The notes under the pieces are model-generated. The model ran no database searches and had not been told where the DNA came from. It was given only the letters and a program-made list of their open reading frames with translations. Positions 6,789 to 26,614 of a stretch of DNA of 40,017 nucleotides are shown here, in pieces (position 1 is the first letter of the stretch; every line of letters begins with the position of its first letter). This DNA comes from Acidimicrobiaceae bacterium. Its GTDB lineage: Bacteria > Actinomycetota > Acidimicrobiia > Acidimicrobiales > Aldehydirespiratoraceae. The position numbers and the translations under genes are program-made. The stretch covers positions 1 through 40,017 of the forward strand of contig PABW01000011.1 of NCBI GenBank assembly GCA_002699625.1. The letters are read 5' to 3'.

Positions 6789-7556
6789 TCACGCGTCCAT
6801 CCCCAGTCCCCACCGGAGAGCCCGGCGCAGCAGTTCGTAGTACTGCGGCGCTTCCCAGGAGCAACGCTCGATGCGCGGGTAGTAGTCGGTCATGGGCGCC
6901 ATGTCCCAATGGCTGCGGCAGTGACCAAGCGTGTTGTATAAAACGGCGCCGTCGCCCAAGGGCCGGACGTATTGGACAAGTCGTTGACCGTCGCCGTCGG
7001 TCCAGTCGCTCTCGTCGAAACCGGCTGCGGTTCCGGTCCAATTGGTGGCGAGGTGGACGTCGAATGATTCACGGTCGTGGTAGTCGCACAGGTACAGCTC
7101 GTCGTCGGTCTCGAATGGCTCGATTCCGTCGACCAACCAATGGTCGCTAACCGCTGCCACAGTGTACGGCGCTATCGGTGGGTGGGCGATGAATTGGCTA
7201 CCCAGGGTCTCAGCCCAGGTGGGGAAACAGCGCGGTGTCGAGACGCCGGCCGCTCCGAGGTCGAGCGCGGCGTTCGTGCCGTGCAGCGCGATCCATCGAC
7301 CACCGGCCTCTACCCACGAAGCGATAGCGTCTTGGGCGTCGGTTGAAGGCCGCACGTCGCAGGTGTAGGACACGAGTAGATCCGAGCCGACGATGGCGTC
7401 GGTGGCCTCGTAGTCGCTGTGTACCGACACACGTACGTGCGGGTGCTCGACCATGAGCTTGAGGAGCTCGAGACGGGCGAAGTCGATGTCGTGGAATCGC
7501 CCGCCCGCAACGAGTGCGGCCGAGACTCGCGACGGCGGGTCGTGCTCGGAAGTCAT
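6789..7556 (-). CDS. ThuA-domain protein
   Basis: A 255-residue protein built from one ThuA-like domain (class I glutamine-amidotransferase-like fold). Visible family features are 'RWIALHGTNAALDLG' near residue 92, the 'DELYLCDY' stretch near residue 155 and 'VLYNTLGHCRSHWDM' near residue 210. ThuA proteins are linked to sugar utilisation in rhizobia, and some relatives act on oxidised sugars; the exact chemistry of most is unknown. Here the gene begins five bases after an SDR and precedes the E1 alpha gene, so it probably serves the same pathway, for instance in handling a keto intermediate. That role is inference. Confidence 0.8.
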   Translation of the reverse strand: MTSEHDPPSRVSAALVAGGRFHDIDFARLELLKLMVEHPHVRVSVHSDYEATDAIVGSDLLVSYTCDVRPSTDAQDAIASWVEAGGRWIALHGTNAALDLGAAGVSTPRCFPTWAETLGSQFIAHPPIAPYTVAAVSDHWLVDGIEPFETDDELYLCDYHDRESFDVHLATNWTGTAAGFDESDWTDGDGQRLVQYVRPLGDGAVLYNTLGHCRSHWDMAPMTDYYPRIERCSWEAPQYYELLRRALRWGLGMDA

Positions 7557-7561
7557 CGAAC

Positions 7562-8317
7562 TCAGTAGTCGACGCGCTTGACGAAGCCGCCGTCGACGGT
7601 GACGTTGGTCCCGTTGATGTGTTTAGCTATATCTCCTGCCAGGAATGCAACGGCGTTGGCAACGTCTTGGGGCTCACCAATCTCGCCACCGGGGTGGGCC
7701 GCCTCGGTGGCGCCGAAGAAGTCTGGCATGTGGTTCTTGATCATGTCCCAGTCCCCACCGTTGACCATGATCGGGCCGGGCGAGACGACGTTGCACCGGA
7801 TTCCCACCGCGCCCAGAACCTGGGCTTGGCCGAGCGTCCAGTTGGTGGCGGCGGCCTTAAGCGCGCTGTAGCTGCCGGCGCCTGTGGAGAAGTGCTCCGT
7901 TGCAGCGGTCGTGCCGATGCTGATCAGCGACCCGCCTCCGTCGGCGAGGGCTTCTTGGGCCGCGCCCACGCCGCCGACGAGCGCCATCAGATCGACGTGG
8001 AAGTTGGTCGCCCAGTCTTCGAGAGAGGCCTGCGGCTTGCCCGAAGTGTTGTGGACGTAGATGTCGACTCCACCGAGGGCTTCGGCGGCGGAGTTGACCC
8101 AGCTCACCAGCGACGACATGTCGCTGGCGTCCGCCGCGCTGCCCCACGCAGTTCCGGACGCGGCGAGTTCCGCAACCGCGGCGTCGACGTCATCGGCGTT
8201 TCGAGCGCAGACGGCCACGCTCGCGCCTTCGTCGAGCAACGTCTCGGCTATGGCGCGGCCGATACCTCTGGTAGCGCCGGTGACCAGTGCTCGCTTGCCC
8301 GAAAGACCGAGATCCAT
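7562..8317 (-). CDS. Short-chain dehydrogenase/reductase (first gene of the aco operon)
   Basis: A 251-residue classical SDR. It opens 'MDLGLSGKRALVTGATRGIG' (NAD(P)-binding TGxxxGIG) and has the 'YVHNTSG' strand in place of the usual NNAG. The active site has serine in 'SLISIGTTAA' and Tyr-x-x-x-Lys in 'SYSALKAAATN'. The ATG at 8317 has a clear GAGGGAAG ribosome-binding site, and I prefer it to the longer open frame that begins at 8437. It heads a minus-strand operon SDR-thuA-acoA-acoB-acoX-acoC. The 22-bp operator at 8340-8361 lies 22 bp upstream of the start. It is expected to oxidise or reduce an alcohol/ketone of the pathway with NAD(P). Confidence 0.85.
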   Translation of the reverse strand: MDLGLSGKRALVTGATRGIGRAIAETLLDEGASVAVCARNADDVDAAVAELAASGTAWGSAADASDMSSLVSWVNSAAEALGGVDIYVHNTSGKPQASLEDWATNFHVDLMALVGGVGAAQEALADGGGSLISIGTTAATEHFSTGAGSYSALKAAATNWTLGQAQVLGAVGIRCNVVSPGPIMVNGGDWDMIKNHMPDFFGATEAAHPGGEIGEPQDVANAVAFLAGDIAKHINGTNVTVDGGFVKRVDY

Positions 8318-8339
8318 GACTTCTTCCCTCACATTACAG

Positions 8340-8361
8340 AAATGTATTGAGCACAATAATA
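8340..8361. promoter_or_regulatory. Operator-like dyad element, site E (SDR-thuA-aco operon)
   Basis: One of five related 22-bp elements, with halves AAATGTATTGA and GCACAATAATA. It is the most divergent copy but still matches site B and site C at 15 of 22 positions each. On the minus strand it contains TACATT, a plausible -10 hexamer that would start transcription about 17 bases before the SDR start codon. A repressor bound here would block the whole aco operon. Lowest confidence of the five. Confidence 0.55.
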
Positions 8362-8411
8362 CGCGAAAGCGGGCCGCGGCGAATGGCTGCGCCCCCACTT
8401 CGGCAGCGGCA

Positions 8412-9830
8412 CTATGGCTGCTCGGCTGAACGGGCATCTTGCATTGCTCGCATCCATTTGGGCCCGGGGAGCCACTGTGCGATCACCAAGACCAGCGCCA
8501 TGACAAACGCACACGTCGCGAACACCGCGTTGAAAGGGTCAATCGCTGCCTGAGTCACCGGGTCGCCGGACTCGAACGGCGTGTCTTCCACCGCCGCTGA
8601 GACCGCAACCAAGCCCGTCACGCCGACCGCCACCGCGATCTGACGCGCCACCGATGTGAGCCCAGCGCCCTGGTTCACCTCATCGAAGCGCAACGCGGTC
8701 ATGGCGACGATGTTGGGTGACATCATGCCGATGCCTGCGCCGATGCCCCCGATGGTGAGTGCCAGCGCTATGAACCAGAGGTCGGTCTCGGGGCCGAGCC
8801 GCGACAACAGGGCGAACCCCAACCCCATCAAGAGAGCACCGACGGTCACGGGCCCGCGTGAACCGAACCTATCCGTGAGGCGACCGCCGAATGGCATGAA
8901 CGCGCCGAGACCGATGCCGGCGGGCAGCAACACGAATCCGACCGTGATGTCGGCGATGCCCCGCGTCGAGCTGAGTTCGAGCGGGATGAACAGGCCGCGG
9001 CCCATCTGTGTGACCATGATGAGCGCGGAAGTGACGACACCGAGTGCGTAGGTTCGGTTGGCGAAGAGTGCGACATTCACGAGCGGATGCGAGCGACGCA
9101 GCATCCGAATGACGAACCAGGCCACGCCGCCCAGGCCTATCGCCAGCGATGCCACGGTCGGTAACGAGAGCCATCCCCACGACTCCGCCTCCGACAGTCC
9201 GATCGTGAGGGCGCTAGTGCTGACCGATGCGACGGCGAGACCGATGACGTCGAGACTGCGGTGTCCGCCAGGCCGAGAGGCCGTCATGATCCGCCATGCG
9301 AAGAGCGCCCCCACCCCGCCGATAGGGACGTTCACCGCGAAGACCCATCGCCACCCGACCGTCTCGACGATCGCGCCGCCGACGAGCGGCCCGACTGCGG
9401 GCGCCACGGTGAGGGCGATGCCCCAAAGGCCCATCGCCTTCCCGCGCTCATAGGGCCCGAACGTCTCGAAGATCGTCGCCGTCGTGACCGGGATCAGGAG
9501 ACCTCCGCCCAGTCCTTGGAGCACACGAAACGCCACGAGCACGGGCAGCGATGGGGCCATGGCGCAAAGCCCGGATCCGACGGTGAAGACCGTAAGCGTA
9601 GCAATGAAGGCGTTCTTGCGTCCGAAACTGTCACTGATCCAGCCGCTGGCGAGTTGGGTCACGCCCAGCGCGACTATGTAGGCCGTGAAGACCCATTCGA
9701 TCCCGCTGTCGGTGCCGAAGTCTCGCTCTATGTCGGCCAGGGCGAGGGTGACGGCCGTCGAGTCGAGCACCACGAGGAACGTGCCGACCGTCATCACCCA
9801 CAGAGCGACCCACTTGGCCTCGAGCTTCAC
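8412..9830 (-). CDS. MFS transporter, DHA2 (EmrB/QacA-like) family
   Basis: A 472-residue membrane protein with about 14 hydrophobic segments. It has the DHA2-type opening 'VMTVGTFLVVLDSTAVTLAL' with the conserved Asp in helix 1, and motif A-like 'GWISDSFGRKNAF'. Motif C of drug:H+ antiporters reads 'GIALTVAPAVGPLVGG' near residue 150. Proteins of this family export drugs, acids or toxic intermediates using the proton gradient. It is 106 bp downstream of the amidohydrolase on the same strand and probably shares its promoter. The likely role is export of a toxic pathway intermediate or of the substrate, but uptake cannot be excluded. Confidence 0.83.
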   Translation of the reverse strand: MKLEAKWVALWVMTVGTFLVVLDSTAVTLALADIERDFGTDSGIEWVFTAYIVALGVTQLASGWISDSFGRKNAFIATLTVFTVGSGLCAMAPSLPVLVAFRVLQGLGGGLLIPVTTATIFETFGPYERGKAMGLWGIALTVAPAVGPLVGGAIVETVGWRWVFAVNVPIGGVGALFAWRIMTASRPGGHRSLDVIGLAVASVSTSALTIGLSEAESWGWLSLPTVASLAIGLGGVAWFVIRMLRRSHPLVNVALFANRTYALGVVTSALIMVTQMGRGLFIPLELSSTRGIADITVGFVLLPAGIGLGAFMPFGGRLTDRFGSRGPVTVGALLMGLGFALLSRLGPETDLWFIALALTIGGIGAGIGMMSPNIVAMTALRFDEVNQGAGLTSVARQIAVAVGVTGLVAVSAAVEDTPFESGDPVTQAAIDPFNAVFATCAFVMALVLVIAQWLPGPKWMRAMQDARSAEQP

Positions 9831-19192: not shown

Positions 19193-20005
19193 ATGCCCGA
19201 GCGCAAACTCGTTGAGCTCACCCACCCCAGCGACGGCGTCGCCGAGATCGCCTTTGCGGACCCCCAGATCGCTAACACCGTCTCGTGGGCGGGGGCTTGC
19301 GCGCTGGCCTGCGGCCTCGACGAAGCACATCAGGCCGGAGCCCGGATCGCGGTCGTGTCGTCATCGGTTGCCGGGCATTGGCTCGAGCACGCCTGGCTGG
19401 GCGACCTCCTCGCAACCTTCGCAGGTGAGCCGACCACCGGCGATCCGGACGGTTTCGGCCGCGTCCTCCGACAACTCGACCGACCCGACCTTCTCGTTAT
19501 CGCCGCCATCGACGGCTCGACCTCGGGCGGCGGCTGCGAGATCGGCTGGGCGTGCGACCTGCGCGTTGCTGGTGCCGACGCGACCTTTGCTCAACCCGAG
19601 GTCGCCATGGCCATCACTACCGGCATCGGCGGGACCTCCCGCCTGGTGCGCCTGATCGGACCGACGGTGGCCGCAGAGATGGTGCTGGACGGCCGGCCAG
19701 TCAGCGCCGAGCGGCTCTATAACCTGGGGGCCGTCAACCGACTCACCGCAGCCGGAGATGCCCGACGCGTTGCCCTTGAGTGGGCGACAGAGCTTGCGAC
19801 GCGACCGCATCAGTCCATCACCGCCATGAAGCAGTTGCTGAGGGACTCGATGAACCGCAGCCTCGATGATGCGCTCCTCGAGGAGCAGGCCGCCTTTCGA
19901 CGCCTCGCAGCGACACCGCTGGCGAGGCAGCGCATGCAGTTAGCCCAGTCGCTCTATGGCCGCGGTGAGCTCCCGAAGGAGCTGGTCGAGGCGGCAGCCG
20001 GCTGA
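19193..20005 (+). CDS. Enoyl-CoA hydratase/isomerase family protein 1
   Basis: A 270-residue crotonase. Both glutamates of canonical hydratases appear to be present: one in 'GGGCEIGWACDLRVAG', the other in 'FAQPEVAMAI', followed by 'GIGGTSRLVRLIG'. This favours true hydration of an enoyl-CoA. The usual N-terminal 'FSAGxDL' loop is replaced by 'SVAGHWLEHAWLGDL', so the acyl-binding side is atypical. The ATG has a strong GGGGGAG site six bases upstream. It is the first gene of the operon ECH - binding protein - fused permease - ATPase - crotonase - SDR, which ends at the terminator at 26611. Confidence 0.85.
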   Translation: MPERKLVELTHPSDGVAEIAFADPQIANTVSWAGACALACGLDEAHQAGARIAVVSSSVAGHWLEHAWLGDLLATFAGEPTTGDPDGFGRVLRQLDRPDLLVIAAIDGSTSGGGCEIGWACDLRVAGADATFAQPEVAMAITTGIGGTSRLVRLIGPTVAAEMVLDGRPVSAERLYNLGAVNRLTAAGDARRVALEWATELATRPHQSITAMKQLLRDSMNRSLDDALLEEQAAFRRLAATPLARQRMQLAQSLYGRGELPKELVEAAAG

Positions 20006-20041: not shown

Positions 20042-21355
20042 ATGAAGAGAATCCGTTACCTGATCGGTGTGCTCCTGGTGTTCGCGCTGGTTGCAGCCGC
20101 GTGCGGCGACGACGACGGGGCCGAAACCCCCGAGTCGGAGCCAGCCGCCGAAACGACATCCTCTGCGCTCGACGCGGAGGATGTCACTACGACGACGATT
20201 GCGCCCGATTCAACCGCACCTGAACCCGAACCCGAGCCAACGCCCGGTTGCATTACCGAGAGCCCCGGCGCGGTCAAAATTGGCTACCTGGGCCTCCCGC
20301 TGCCAGGCAATGACGAGCTCTTCGCAGCCGGAGTCGACTATGTGAACGACGAGCTCGGCGGATTCTGTGGCGGCAACACCTTTGAGGTGGTTACATGCAT
20401 GTCCCTGTTCACCCCCGAGTCCACCGTCGACTGTCTGAACCAGTTCATCGCCGAGGACGTGGTGGTGGCGACGGGCCTGACGCTGTTGTTCGTCAACCCC
20501 AACGACCTCACGAGCGCCCGCCTAGCTTCGTTCGGCGCTGCGCCGGGATCGGTACCCGAGGCTGAGAGTGTCGAGAGCTCGACCCACTTCTTCCCACCGT
20601 CCACTGCGTTCCTCGGTGCTCCGATAGCGGCGATGGGAGAACTCGGCTTCGAGAACGGTGGGGTGTTCTTCACCGATAACGCCAGCGGCCAGTCATCAGC
20701 TGAGACTGCGGCTGAATTGGCGGACGGGCTGGGTGTGTCGATCACCCCGACGTTCTTCGCGGCAGCGCCCGAAGTACCCGACTGGTCGGCCAAAATGTTG
20801 ACCGCGGTCGCCAGTGGCCCCGACTTTGTCGGCGCCCAGATCCTGTCAGCACCCGGCGATTGCCCCGGGTTCATCAGCGCTGCGATTAACACGCCAAACA
20901 CGCCGCCGTTCCTGGCAGCTAGCTGCGCGGCGGACGCGATCGCAAACGCTGCGGACATAGCGGGCAACTACATCTACTCGTTCACGATCCTGCCGGGTGA
21001 TGAGGCGAACGCGCCGACCGATCAGGTCGCTAATGAGGTCGGCATCTATCGCGACGCAGTCGCAGATCTGCCCAACGTCGCGATCGGCGGCGAGTTCGGC
21101 TACGCCCGCGATGTCTTTGGCACCGCCATCAACCTTGCCCGGGCAATCGAGTCGTTGCCGATCACCGAGATCACGGGCGACACGGTGTACGACAACCTGC
21201 CGTCCGCGGCGTTTGACGTGTTCATGGCTGGCCCCGTCGACTGCGCGGCGCGGCCCGACGCCGGCCAGACCGGTTGCGGCACGAACATGTGGCTGTACGA
21301 GATCGTTGCCGACGGCACGTTCGTCAACCTCGGCCTATTGCCGGTGCTCCAGTGA
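20042..21355 (+). CDS. ABC transporter substrate-binding lipoprotein (branched-chain-amino-acid type)
   Basis: A 437-residue exported lipoprotein. It has a signal peptide with lipobox 'LVAAAC' (Cys21), then a ~60-residue Asp/Glu/Pro/Thr-rich linker. The type-1 periplasmic-binding fold begins at 'VKIGYLGLPLPGNDELFAAGVDYVN'. It is anchored outside the membrane and delivers ligand to the permease encoded next. LivK-like proteins bind branched-chain amino acids, but members in catabolic clusters bind aromatic or alicyclic acids and amides; the ligand here is unknown. GGAGG lies 11 bases before the ATG. A strong hairpin seven bases after the stop may raise its level relative to the downstream genes. 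Confidence 0.88.
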   Translation: MKRIRYLIGVLLVFALVAAACGDDDGAETPESEPAAETTSSALDAEDVTTTTIAPDSTAPEPEPEPTPGCITESPGAVKIGYLGLPLPGNDELFAAGVDYVNDELGGFCGGNTFEVVTCMSLFTPESTVDCLNQFIAEDVVVATGLTLLFVNPNDLTSARLASFGAAPGSVPEAESVESSTHFFPPSTAFLGAPIAAMGELGFENGGVFFTDNASGQSSAETAAELADGLGVSITPTFFAAAPEVPDWSAKMLTAVASGPDFVGAQILSAPGDCPGFISAAINTPNTPPFLAASCAADAIANAADIAGNYIYSFTILPGDEANAPTDQVANEVGIYRDAVADLPNVAIGGEFGYARDVFGTAINLARAIESLPITEITGDTVYDNLPSAAFDVFMAGPVDCAARPDAGQTGCGTNMWLYEIVADGTFVNLGLLPVLQ

Positions 21356-21361
21356 AGTTTG

Positions 21362-21407
21362 CTCCCCTGGGGCCGCCTGGCCAGGTGGTTAGGTGGCCCC
21401 GGGGGAG
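21362..21407 (+). promoter_or_regulatory. Strong intercistronic hairpin after the binding-protein gene
   Basis: Arms 21362-21377 and 21392-21407 can pair over 16 bp (14 Watson-Crick, 2 G-U) around a 14-base loop. The hairpin begins seven bases after the stop codon of the binding-protein gene and has no T-run after it, so it is not a typical full terminator. Hairpins at this position are known in other ABC operons to stabilise the binding-protein mRNA or to cause partial termination. It also argues that the next gene starts at GTG 21438, since the upstream GTG at 21393 lies within the stem. Confidence 0.65.
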
Positions 21408-21437: not shown

Positions 21438-24236
21438 GTGCTCGACACGTATCTGACCTTCGCGATCCTCGGCCTTGGCTTCGGCTCGATCTACGCGTCG
21501 TTGGGAATGGGTCTGGTCATCACCTACAAGGGCACGGGCATCATCAACTTCGCGTTGGCGGCCTTGGCCACCTGGGGCGCATTGGTGACCGACGAGCTAC
21601 GCAAGACAGGCGATTTCGTGCTCCCGGTCTTCATCATTCCTGACCGAGTGACGATCGACTCCGGAGGCCTCAACCTGTGGACCGCGCTCCCACTGGGCCT
21701 GTTGTCCACCGTGGTCCTCGCTTTATTCAGCTACCTTGCGATCTTCCGGCCCATGCGAGCGGCACCCGTGCTGGCCCGAATCGTCGCCTCGATCGGCCTC
21801 CTTACCACGTTGCAGACACTGATGCTCTTGCGATTCGGCGAGACGCCGCGCAACGTGGAGGGCATCCTGCCCAAGGAGTGGGTGAAGATCGCCGGCCTGG
21901 AAATCCCTCGCGACCGGCTCTTCGTTGCCGCCATCGCTGTTGGTGCTGCGCTCTTGGTCGGCGCCTGGTTCCGCAGGTCACGTACAGGCCTGGCAATCCG
22001 GGCAACAGCGGAGAACGAGGAGGCTGCATCGCTAGCACGGTTCTCTCCCACGTCGCTGGCGGGCGTGACATGGGTCGCCAGCGCCGCGCTGACCGGCCTC
22101 ATGCTCATCCTCGCCTCGAGCATCGTTCCGTTGGGCCCGACGACCTACTCGCTGTTCATCGTCCCGGCGCTGGCGGCCGCGCTGGTCGGCCGGCTCAGTT
22201 CGTTGACGGTGACTACCGCCGCCGGACTCGCCCTGGGGATGCTGCAATCGGAAGTCGGCTTTCTCCGGGGTCGTTCCTGGTGGCCTGATTTCGCTGACAC
22301 ATCTGGGGTTTTTGACGCCGTCCCGTTCGTGATCATCGTCATCGCTCTGTTCATCGCCGGGCGCAGACTTCCCGAACGTGGCGACACAGTGCAAGATCGG
22401 CTTCCCGACGTGATCCGGGTATCGCCGCGCTGGCCCCTGGTCGGCCTCTCTTTTGTGGCGGTCACTGCGCTGGCGTATCTGTTCTCCAACACATACCGCC
22501 TGGCGCTGACCAGCACCCTCATTGGCGTTCTGATGGCCCTGTCGATCGTGGTCCTGACGGGGCTGGTCGGTCAGATCACGCTTGCGCAGGCCGCCTTCGC
22601 CGGCGCATCGGCCTTCCTCGTCATGAAGCTCGGTGACGGCTGGCCATTCCCACTCAACATGATCGCCGCCGTGGCGCTCGCCACCGTGCTGGGAACGATT
22701 GTGGGGATCCCAGCGCTGCGAATCCGTGGCGCACAACTGGCCGTCGTAACCATGGCGGGTGCGGTAGCCATTGAACGTTTCGTGTTCGCCAACCCGAGAT
22801 TCGTGGATCCCAGTGAGAATCAGGTCCATGATCCCGAGATGTTCGGCCTAAATCTTAGCCGCCAGGTTGGTCGCGAGACGGCCCGCGTCCATTTCACCTT
22901 GCTGGTTCTGGTGCTGGTGGTCTTTGTGTTGCTTGTCGTCACCAACATCATCCGTAGCTCTACCGGCCGCCGGTTCCTCGCCGTTCGTTCCAACGAGCGC
23001 GCCGCCACCTCTGCGGGGGTCAATGTTGCCCAGACGAAACTCCTCGCCTTCGCAATCTCGTCAGCCATTGCCGGGCTCGCTGGCACGATGATGGCTTTCT
23101 TCCTTGGCCAGTTCGCCACCGACAGCAACCAGTTCGCAGTGTTCGCAAGTCTCAATTTCGTCGTGTTTGCGTACTTGGGCGGCATCAGCAGCATCAACGG
23201 AGCGCTCATTGCTGGCGTGATTGCTCCTTCGGGCATTGCCTTCGTCATCATAAACGACTACTTCGACTTCTTCGGAGGCCGAGAGTACGCCGCTCTGGCC
23301 GGCATCCTTCTCATCGTCACCATGGTCATCAACCCGATCGGCATCGCCGGTGCGACTGAGGAACGGCGCCTAGCGAAGTTGGCGGCCAAGGGCGAGGAGG
23401 ATCAGCTTCGCCTCGCCCCGCGCATGCCCGAAGCCGGAGCGCCTCCCGAGTTGGAGCCGTCACCCGACCGTCCGGCGCTCAGCGTTGATGGGTTGACCGT
23501 TCGCTACGGTGGGCTCCTCGCGGTCAACGGCGCATCCGTCGAGGTCGGTGCGGGCGAGATTGTCGGCCTTATCGGACCGAACGGTGCCGGCAAGACGACG
23601 TTCGTGGATGCCGTGACCGGATTCACGCCGGCTACCGGTGCTGTGACGCTCGCAGGTCGCAGGCTCGACGACGGAAGCGCCCATCGCCGGGCGCGCGCTG
23701 GCCTAGGCCGCACGTGGCAGTCCGGAGAGTTCTTCGCGGACATGTCGGCTTACGAGAATGTCTTGGTGCCGACCACTGCGGGAACCGTCCGACAGGTAGT
23801 GCAAGATATCGTCAGACCCACGCGAGAAACTCCAGTGTCGACTGCGGTTTGGGCGATGGACCTGTTGGGGCTGCGTGACGACGCCACCTCGCGACCTCAG
23901 GATCTGTCACTCGGCAAGCGCAAGCTGCTTGGCGTGGCCCGCTGTCTGGCTGGCAATCCGCGGGTGGTGTGTCTCGACGAACCAGCCGCGGGACTCGACA
24001 GCGGTGAGAGCCGAGAACTGGGGACGCGGCTCCGCGACGTTGCAGGCACCGGCATCGGCGTGTTCTTGATCGATCACGATATGGGGCTAGTGCTTGATGT
24101 CTGCGACCGCATTTATGTTCTGAACTTCGGTGAGATCATCGCTGCCGGCACCCCTGAGGAGATCCGGTCCGACCCCGAGGTCATCAATGCGTACCTCGGC
24201 GCGGAGACCACCGACACCACCCCGGGGGGCTCATGA
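21438..24236 (+). CDS. Fused ABC transporter: LivH-like permease, LivM-like permease and LivG-like ATPase
   Basis: A single 932-residue protein that joins three normally separate subunits. About residues 1-300 are a LivH-type permease ('[16 protein letters not shown]'; '[20 protein letters not shown]'). About 330-650 are a LivM-type permease ('[22 protein letters not shown]'; '[19 protein letters not shown]'), together with about 15 membrane segments. About 690-925 are a LivG-type ATPase with Walker A 'GPNGAGKTT', signature 'LSLGKRK' (the usual glutamine is replaced by lysine) and Walker B 'VVCLDEP'. No frameshift is needed to read through. The start is GTG 21438 after a G-rich site. The last four bases overlap the second ATPase gene (ATGA). 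It forms the membrane core of the importer. Confidence 0.88.
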
Positions 24237-24952
24237 CCGCCATAGCGACCACCGAGTTGACAGCGGGCTACAACGGCGTGCCGGTCGTGCGAGGACTCGA
24301 CCTCGACGTCGCGGCCGGCGAGGTGGTCTCACTGTTGGGGCCCAACGGGGCCGGTAAGTCCACGACCCTGCGGACGATCTGCGGCCTTCAGCCGGCGATC
24401 GCCGGCCGCGTGACACTGCTGGGTGACGACGTGACCGGCCTACGCGCCCACTACGTATGTCGGAAGGGCCTTGCGGTCGTCCCGGAGAACCGAGGACTCT
24501 TCCACCAGTTGACCGTGGCGGAGAACCTTCGCCTCCGCAAGTGCAAGTCATCTACGGTCACCGTCGACGACGTGGTGGACAACTTCGCCACGCTCGGTTC
24601 TCTGATGAAACGTCGCGCGGGTCTGCTCTCGGGCGGCGAACAGCAGATGCTCGCCCTGGGCTGCGGCCTCATCGCCGACCCGCGTGTGTTAATGGTCGAC
24701 GAACTGAGCTTGGGCCTGGCTCCACTGATTGTGGCCGACATTTTGCAGGTCCTGCGCCGCATCGCAAACGACACCAAGCTCGCAGTCCTTTTGGTGGAAC
24801 AGCACGTCCACAGCGCGTTGGCGATCAGTGACCGGGCTTACGTACTCGATCACGGCGAACTCGTCGCGTCCGGCACAAACGCGGAGCTGTCAGAGGATGT
24901 AGCCACACTCCAGGCGAGCTACCTGGGGACCAAAGGAGAGGACCAGCGATGA
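24233..24952 (+). CDS. LivF-like ABC transporter ATPase
   Basis: A 239-residue ATPase subunit. It has Walker A 'GPNGAGKST' near residue 37, the LivF-typical '[21 protein letters not shown]', signature '[10 protein letters not shown]', Walker B '[13 protein letters not shown]' and the switch histidine in '[11 protein letters not shown]'. With the ATPase half of the preceding fusion it supplies the two nucleotide-binding domains of a high-affinity import system. It overlaps both neighbours by four bases (ATGA on each side), so translation of this part of the operon is tightly coupled. Confidence 0.9.
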
Positions 24953-25764
24953 GCGAAAAAGAGAATTTCGTGCGTTACGAGACTCGCGCAGAGGGAACGG
25001 TGGCGTTGATAACGCTCAGCCGCGCCCAGGCGCGCAACGCCCAGAACAAACAGATGACGTACCAGCTCAACGAAGCGTTCAGCCAGGCAGCCCACGACGA
25101 CGCAGTTCACTGCATCGTGCTGGCTGCCGAAGGCCCCGACTTTTCGTCCGGTCACGACCTGAAGGGCCCCGGCCAGTTCGATGCGGACCCCCATTGGGTC
25201 GGTGGGTCCTGGACACGTCCGGGCGCTGAGGGTTTGATGGCCATGGAGGAGGAGATGTACCTCCACATGTGCCGCCGCTGGCACGACCTGCCCAAGCCCA
25301 CCATCGCCGCAGTGCAGGGCAAGGTGATTGCCGGAGGGTTGATGCTCATGTGGGTGTGTGACTTGATTGTGTGCGCGGATGATGCTCAGTTCCGGGATAT
25401 GACAGTGGACTTCGGCGTGAACGGCGTCGAGTGGTTCTGCCACCCGTGGGAGATGGGCATCCGCAAGGCAAAGGAGTTCCTATTCACCGGGGATTGGTTC
25501 AGCGCTGAGGACGCCGCCGACATCGGCATGGTGAACCGGGTGGTCCCGGTTGCGGACCTTCTCGACGAGACGCTCGCTCTGGCCGAGCGGATCGCAGCCC
25601 GTCCCCAGTTCGCGCTGAAGCTGGCGAAGCTGTCGGTCAACCAGGCCCTCGACGCTCAGGGCTTCCAGATGGCCCAGCAGGCAGCGTTCAGCTTGCAGCA
25701 TCTAGGACACGAACATGTCCGCGCGGAGATGATCCGCCAGGGCCTGTCTTTCCCAGGTGAGTGA
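24949..25764 (+). CDS. Crotonase-fold protein 2, lacking the hydratase glutamates
   Basis: A 271-residue protein of the enoyl-CoA hydratase superfamily. The oxyanion-hole loop 'FSSGHDLKG' and the second loop '[16 protein letters not shown]' are intact. However, the two positions that hold catalytic glutamates in hydratases read Met ('AGGLMLM') and a Thr/Val/Asp stretch ('[15 protein letters not shown]'). Hydration by the standard mechanism is therefore unlikely. Isomerase, hydrolase, ring-opening or C-C lyase chemistry on a CoA thioester is more likely. It is coupled to the LivF gene by an ATGA overlap and is followed by an SDR. Confidence 0.82.
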
Positions 25765-25774
25765 GGAGCCAGCA

Positions 25775-26614
25775 ATGTCGGCACAAACCCGAGGACGTCT
25801 CGCCGGTAAGGTCGGCTTGGTGACGGGCGGAGCGAGTGGGATCGGAGAGGCCACCGCCCGTGCTTTCGTCGAGCAGGGGGCACGCGTCATCATCGCCGAC
25901 GTGCGCGCGGATGCCGCTCGCTCGGTGGCTAAGGAGCTCGGCGGCCCAGACGTCGCCCTCGGGGTGGGCATGGACGTGTCGGTCGAGAAGGACGTCGCCG
26001 CCGGCTTCGATGCCGGCACCGAGGCGTTCGGCTACGTCGATGTCGCGTTTCTCAACGCCGGCATCCTCGGGGCCTCGGGGCCAATATCGCAGACTCCAGT
26101 AGAGGACTGGGACCGAACGTTGGACATTCTTGTGAAAGGTCCTTTCCTGGGCATCAAGCATGCGGCGCGAGTCATGGAGCCACTCGGCCGCGGCGCGATC
26201 GTGTTGACGTCGAGCATCGCCGGCCTGGCCGGTGGTATCGGCTCGCATGCATACACAACGGCCAAGACCGCAGTGGTCGGGCTCACCCGATCCGCTGCGT
26301 CGGAGCTCTGCAATTTCGGGATTCGCGTCAACGCAGTAGCGCCTGGCACGGTGCCGACGAACATGACGATTCCCAGCGGCGACGAAGCCATGGGCCAGCG
26401 GGTGCGCGACATGATTGCGGCTTCATCGCCGCTGGGGATCGCAGGGAGCCCGCGTGATGTCGCTGATGCCGTCGTCTACCTGTCGAGCGACGAGAGCCGC
26501 TATGTATCGGGCGTCACCATTGCGGTTGACGCTGGACACCTGGCCGGCGGCACCATGGGCCAGTTCCACAAGGGTGAAGGCCACATGACGACCGGCATCG
26601 CAGGCGAGATCTGA
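25775..26614 (+). CDS. Short-chain dehydrogenase/reductase (end of the transporter operon)
   Basis: A 279-residue classical SDR. It has 'LVTGGASGIGEATARAF' (cofactor-binding glycines at about 18-24), 'LNAGILG', catalytic serine in 'VLTSSIAGLAG', and Tyr-x-x-x-Lys in 'HAYTTAKTAVVG'. The family oxidises a hydroxyl to a ketone or the reverse, for instance the 3-hydroxyacyl-CoA step of beta-oxidation. The ATG at 25775 has GAGGAG six bases upstream and is preferred to the in-frame GTG at 25757, which lies before that site. Its stop codon is part of the terminator hairpin. Confidence 0.85.
   Translation: MSAQTRGRLAGKVGLVTGGASGIGEATARAFVEQGARVIIADVRADAARSVAKELGGPDVALGVGMDVSVEKDVAAGFDAGTEAFGYVDVAFLNAGILGASGPISQTPVEDWDRTLDILVKGPFLGIKHAARVMEPLGRGAIVLTSSIAGLAGGIGSHAYTTAKTAVVGLTRSAASELCNFGIRVNAVAPGTVPTNMTIPSGDEAMGQRVRDMIAASSPLGIAGSPRDVADAVVYLSSDESRYVSGVTIAVDAGHLAGGTMGQFHKGEGHMTTGIAGEI

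Follow-up and report, generated by a model that had tools for sequence, protein, structure and literature searches.

The window, the whole 40,017-nucleotide stretch of Acidimicrobiaceae DNA analyzed here, carries at positions 21438-24236 of the plus strand one real coding frame. A LivH-like permease, a LivM-like permease and a LivG-type ATPase, shown in textbooks as separate proteins, follow one another in a single polypeptide. We are highly confident that, with a substrate-binding protein (SBP) and a separate LivF, it makes up an ordinary HAAT/Liv-type ABC importer. The triple fusion is a common architecture that is already in public annotation, an ordinary variant rather than a discovery, because it is common in relatives and in the well-studied Rhodococcus and has RefSeq annotation.

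The open frame and its integrity

Translation of 21438-24236 gives 932 residues followed by a single terminal stop, with no interruption. As originally predicted, the three domains lie in the order LivH, LivM, LivG in this one frame. Pfam identified two BPD_transp_2 domains (1.3e-48), an ABC_tran domain (5.8e-23) and a BCA_ABC_TP_C tail (1.5e-10). The gene and its operon have the following features.

19193..20005, plus: enoyl-CoA hydratase/isomerase (ECH_1), opening the conserved cluster; Pfam, also found upstream of the SBP in genome G006
20042..21355, plus: SBP, Peripla_BP_6, lipoprotein-like N-terminus; Pfam, syntenic SBP in G006 and G022
21362..21407, plus: hairpin in the SBP-fusion gap, 21-bp stem and 4-nt loop; folding z -3.6 and -5.3
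21438..22355, plus: LivH-like permease domain, residues 1-306; Pfam BPD_transp_2, own-genome match C6:21471-22346, AlphaFold model
22356..22433, plus: linker H-M, residues 307-332, lowest model confidence; predicted structure, coding conservation
22434..23414, plus: LivM-like permease domain, residues 333-659; Pfam, own-genome match C6:22506-23324, predicted structure
23415..23477, plus: linker M-G, residues about 660-680; predicted structure, coding conservation
23478..24236, plus: LivG-type ATPase domain with BCA_ABC_TP_C tail; Pfam, curated ATPase models, fold matches to MJ1267 and LptB
24233..24952, plus: separate LivF-type ATPase, signature LSGGE, start overlapping the fusion stop (ATGA); Pfam, best curated matches UrtE and LivF
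24949..25764, plus: enoyl-CoA hydratase, ATGA overlap with livF; Pfam, same order in G006
25757..26614, plus: short-chain dehydrogenase (SDR), overlapping the ECH stop; same order in G006

The AlphaFold model of the fusion (pLDDT 86.4, pTM 0.89, from an alignment of 22 rows) has soft linkers between the domains, and the junctions originally placed near 22440 and 23460 lie close to them. When the model was used in a fold search, the matches listed were all to the ATPase part: MJ1267 (1g6h, Z 26.5), LptB and similar ATPases. No solved structure was found that matches the permease half by sequence, and a construct of fixed stoichiometry could aid structural work.

The source genome is a draft of 122 contigs that is 86% complete, and a sequencing or assembly error that deleted the stop codons separating three genes was therefore considered. 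An independent genome of the same genus, G006, has a copy that is 94% identical and aligns over residues 1-932 without a gap. Comparison of the 932 codons showed 710 identical, 167 synonymous and 55 nonsynonymous. The 35 codons at the H-M junction divide into 25 identical, 6 synonymous and 4 nonsynonymous, and those of the M-G linker into 26, 4 and 5. Both junctions are open and in frame with no indel relative to G006; the stops or frameshifts that the original prediction had named as grounds against itself do not occur. Thus a gapless copy at this identity, differing mostly by synonymous changes, rules out a frameshift or assembly error. Fusions are also present in finished genomes and plasmids, leaving that explanation a negligible probability.

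The G006 copy also bears on the start codon. A GTG at 21393, upstream in the same frame, would give a protein of 947 aa. That codon is GCG in G006 while the GTG at 21438 is conserved, making 21438 the better start.

Operon, ATPases and likely substrate

The operon runs ECH, SBP, hairpin, fusion, LivF, ECH, SDR, with overlaps of 4-8 nt from the fusion on, and the order of its genes is retained in G006. The enzymes it encodes are acyl-CoA enzymes of a beta-oxidation-like kind. The second ATPase is separate, as predicted, and its gene overlaps the fusion by 4 nt.

The hairpin between the SBP gene and the fusion is conserved in G006, where four base pairs differ, one by a double and three by single changes, with all pairing kept. 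With no U-run after it, it probably does not act as an intrinsic terminator. The hairpin occurs once in the genome, which ruled out a dispersed repeat. It could plausibly have a role in differential mRNA stability; lying 3' of the SBP gene, it may let SBP message build up above permease message.

The assignment to the HAAT/Liv type is based on two BPD_transp_2 permease domains, a LivG-type ATPase with a BCA_ABC_TP_C tail and a LivF-type partner, and an operon-encoded binding protein of the Peripla_BP_6 type. Among the curated ATPase models LivG matches the fusion best, at a score below its equivalog cut-off (202.8 vs 362). The NCBIfam LivF cut-off was likewise not reached (163 vs 441), nor were those of the urea transporter UrtABCDE (UrtD 165.5 vs 304.1; UrtE 195.3 vs 285.8).

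The LivG-type domain has a Walker A motif GPNGAGKT, the signature LSLGK and an H-loop histidine, His880. The original prediction reported this signature correctly, but calling it altered did not hold up. LivG-type ATPases in a motif survey carry LSLGK, LSLGQ, LSTGT, LSQGQ, LAYGQ, LPYGQ and others, and it is the LivF-type ATPases that retain LSGGE/Q. The survey used regular expressions and missed many motifs, so its counts are partial; the range of motifs found nevertheless rules out LSLGK as an anomaly.

A real fusion could still be a decaying gene of a non-functional transporter. The departure of LSLGK from the textbook LSGGQ would fit this, as would the patchy occurrence of the orthologue within the genus, where it was found in only 2 of 9 genomes. 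Against it, LSLGK falls inside LivG variation, the Walker A, Walker B and H-loop residues are intact in both ATPases, the operon is conserved in G006, and the excess of synonymous over nonsynonymous changed codons (167 vs 55) indicates purifying selection. Decay is thus very improbable, and a working importer is the preferred reading.

In ABC importers of this kind the ATP sites are composite, shared between the two halves of a LivG-LivF heterodimer. The fusion would supply both membrane halves and one ATPase, with the three subunits locked at equal stoichiometry. The separate LivF would pair with the LivG domain to complete the ATPase heterodimer. The lipoprotein-like SBP would hand over the substrate, presumably in the import direction, and this substrate may be a carboxylic acid that feeds the adjacent acyl-CoA pathway.

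The family name would instead make this a true branched-chain amino acid importer. Pfam and NCBIfam names and the LivG model as best curated match favor that assignment, but the scores are far short of the cut-offs set for the LivG and LivF equivalogs. The neighbors, moreover, are ECH, SDR, acyl-CoA dehydrogenase, AMP-ligase and Rieske oxygenase genes rather than genes of amino acid metabolism, and amino acid import appears unlikely. The wider neighborhood also includes an EcKL/APH kinase-like protein and TetR, and related fusions in Rhodococcus sp. BH4 and in G022 adjoin acyl-CoA catabolic genes. The acyl-CoA neighborhoods of the window, BH4 and G022 hint that an acid is taken up to be degraded; judging from these gene neighbors, a carboxylic acid destined for degradation is a more likely substrate than leucine. 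The ABC importer CamABCD, which takes up cholate metabolites in R. jostii (PMC8399759), was weighed as a possible functional parallel. We tentatively propose, at somewhat less than even odds, that in this actinobacterial lineage acyl-CoA catabolic islands recruited Liv-type importers, whose parts were merged time and again into fewer polypeptides (HM, HMG, MFS-LivF, HMGF), and that the one in the window imports a fatty, aromatic or steroid-like carboxylic acid rather than an amino acid.

Positions 9937-30555 of the window form a dense catabolic island. It contains two amidohydrolases, a Rieske oxygenase alpha subunit, an AMP-ligase, the EcKL/APH-like kinase beside an acyl-CoA dehydrogenase, TetR and an FMO-like enzyme. 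It looks suited to breaking down a hydroxylated or cyclic acid.

Distribution and origin of the fusion

The triple fusion had been considered less usual than two-domain fusions, and this impression of rarity is corrected here: in Actinomycetota, importers with H, M and G in one polypeptide are common. Two others are encoded in the same genome, on contigs C4 and C46. All 8 other genomes of the genus sample carry an H-M-G fusion, and frame analysis of the relatives, these eight included, found at least one in 20 of 31 genomes. The phylum sample gave at least 14 of 296 genomes, a lower bound as only two candidates per genome were scored. Four candidates (G175:C3, G040:C60, G141:C9 and G287:C67) are split at stops and were left out of the count. 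Another family of the same order has a full-length fusion with 51% identity to that of the window. Fusions occur on both finished plasmids pRHL1 and pRHL2 of R. jostii RHA1; the pRHL2 protein (WP_011600149.1) is a single CDS of 909 aa flanked by an SBP upstream and an ATPase downstream. Betaproteobacterial MAGs (Dechloromonas and one other) also carry the fusion, on a distant branch.

In the subfamily of the window, H and M are fused in all members found; G is fused in some and separate in others. The H+M tree needs four changes of state, three of them forced by well-supported branches, and holding the fused rows as one clade cost 122 log-likelihood units (AU p 1.6e-36). Within the subfamily, the LivG join was thus gained or lost three times or more. 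Split relatives, with an HM gene and a nearby G, were compared at 12 distinct loci (L054 and L055 were left out as repeats of L013 and L012). Six of them have a 4-nt overlap between a G start and the HM stop, and at four others the overlap is 1-23 nt. With LivM stop and LivG start usually overlapping by a few bases, a single small indel could be enough to join or separate the genes, and the fusion probably arose through loss of such overlaps.

Two other architectures were observed. The LivF-type ATPase beside the other triple fusions has an N-terminal MFS domain, as at this locus:

L039 (G000:C4) 6946-9147, minus: MFS-LivF, 733 aa; MFS_1 2e-31 at 80-367, ABC_tran 1.2e-28 at 512-655

The same fusion is found at L040 (G000:C46) and in many relatives, and of 198 genomes sampled from the phylum, 13 have a near full-length homologue, as does Embleya sp. 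NBC_00888 (46.6%). Because it joins a secondary-transporter fold to an ABC ATPase, this architecture is more surprising than the fusion of the window. Plasmid unnamed2 of Rhodococcus sp. USK10 (L056, 6001-9441) has H, M, G and F in one frame of 1146 aa, a Liv-type importer core as a single polypeptide.

Comparison with known systems

In the literature searched, which covered LivH-LivM-LivG, MFS-LivF and HAAT fusions, no paper was found that describes the LivH-LivM-LivG triple fusion as such, nor any description of the MFS-LivF fusion. For the triple fusion, the missing paper points to incomplete description more than to a new kind of system. The fusion of the window alone changes no known principle; its recognition helps annotation, since public records name H-M-G fusions inconsistently. 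One of them, WP_081559128.1 of Rhodococcus sp. BH4, is named "branched-chain amino acid ABC transporter permease/ATP-binding protein" in RefSeq.

The HAAT/Liv importers (LivKHMGF; UrtABCDE for urea) share with the window two BPD_transp_2 permeases, LivG- and LivF-type ATPases and a Peripla_BP_6 binding protein. They are normally encoded by five separate genes, whereas the window has three subunits in one polypeptide, and its ATPases stay below the LivG/LivF equivalog cut-offs. The nearest literature concerns Brucella HAA system 27, whose IM-ABC entries are LivM-LivG two-domain fusions (PMC2821768). These, like Azospirillum WP_035681247.1, also join a permease to an ATPase of the same importer family, but the other permease remains separate. 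The fusions of R. jostii RHA1 (WP_011600149.1) and BH4 (WP_081559128.1) resemble the window in having H-M-G as a single CDS, an SBP upstream, a separate LivF-type ATPase downstream and acyl-CoA genes nearby; they differ in sequence, with 30-41% identity, and in their remaining neighbors.
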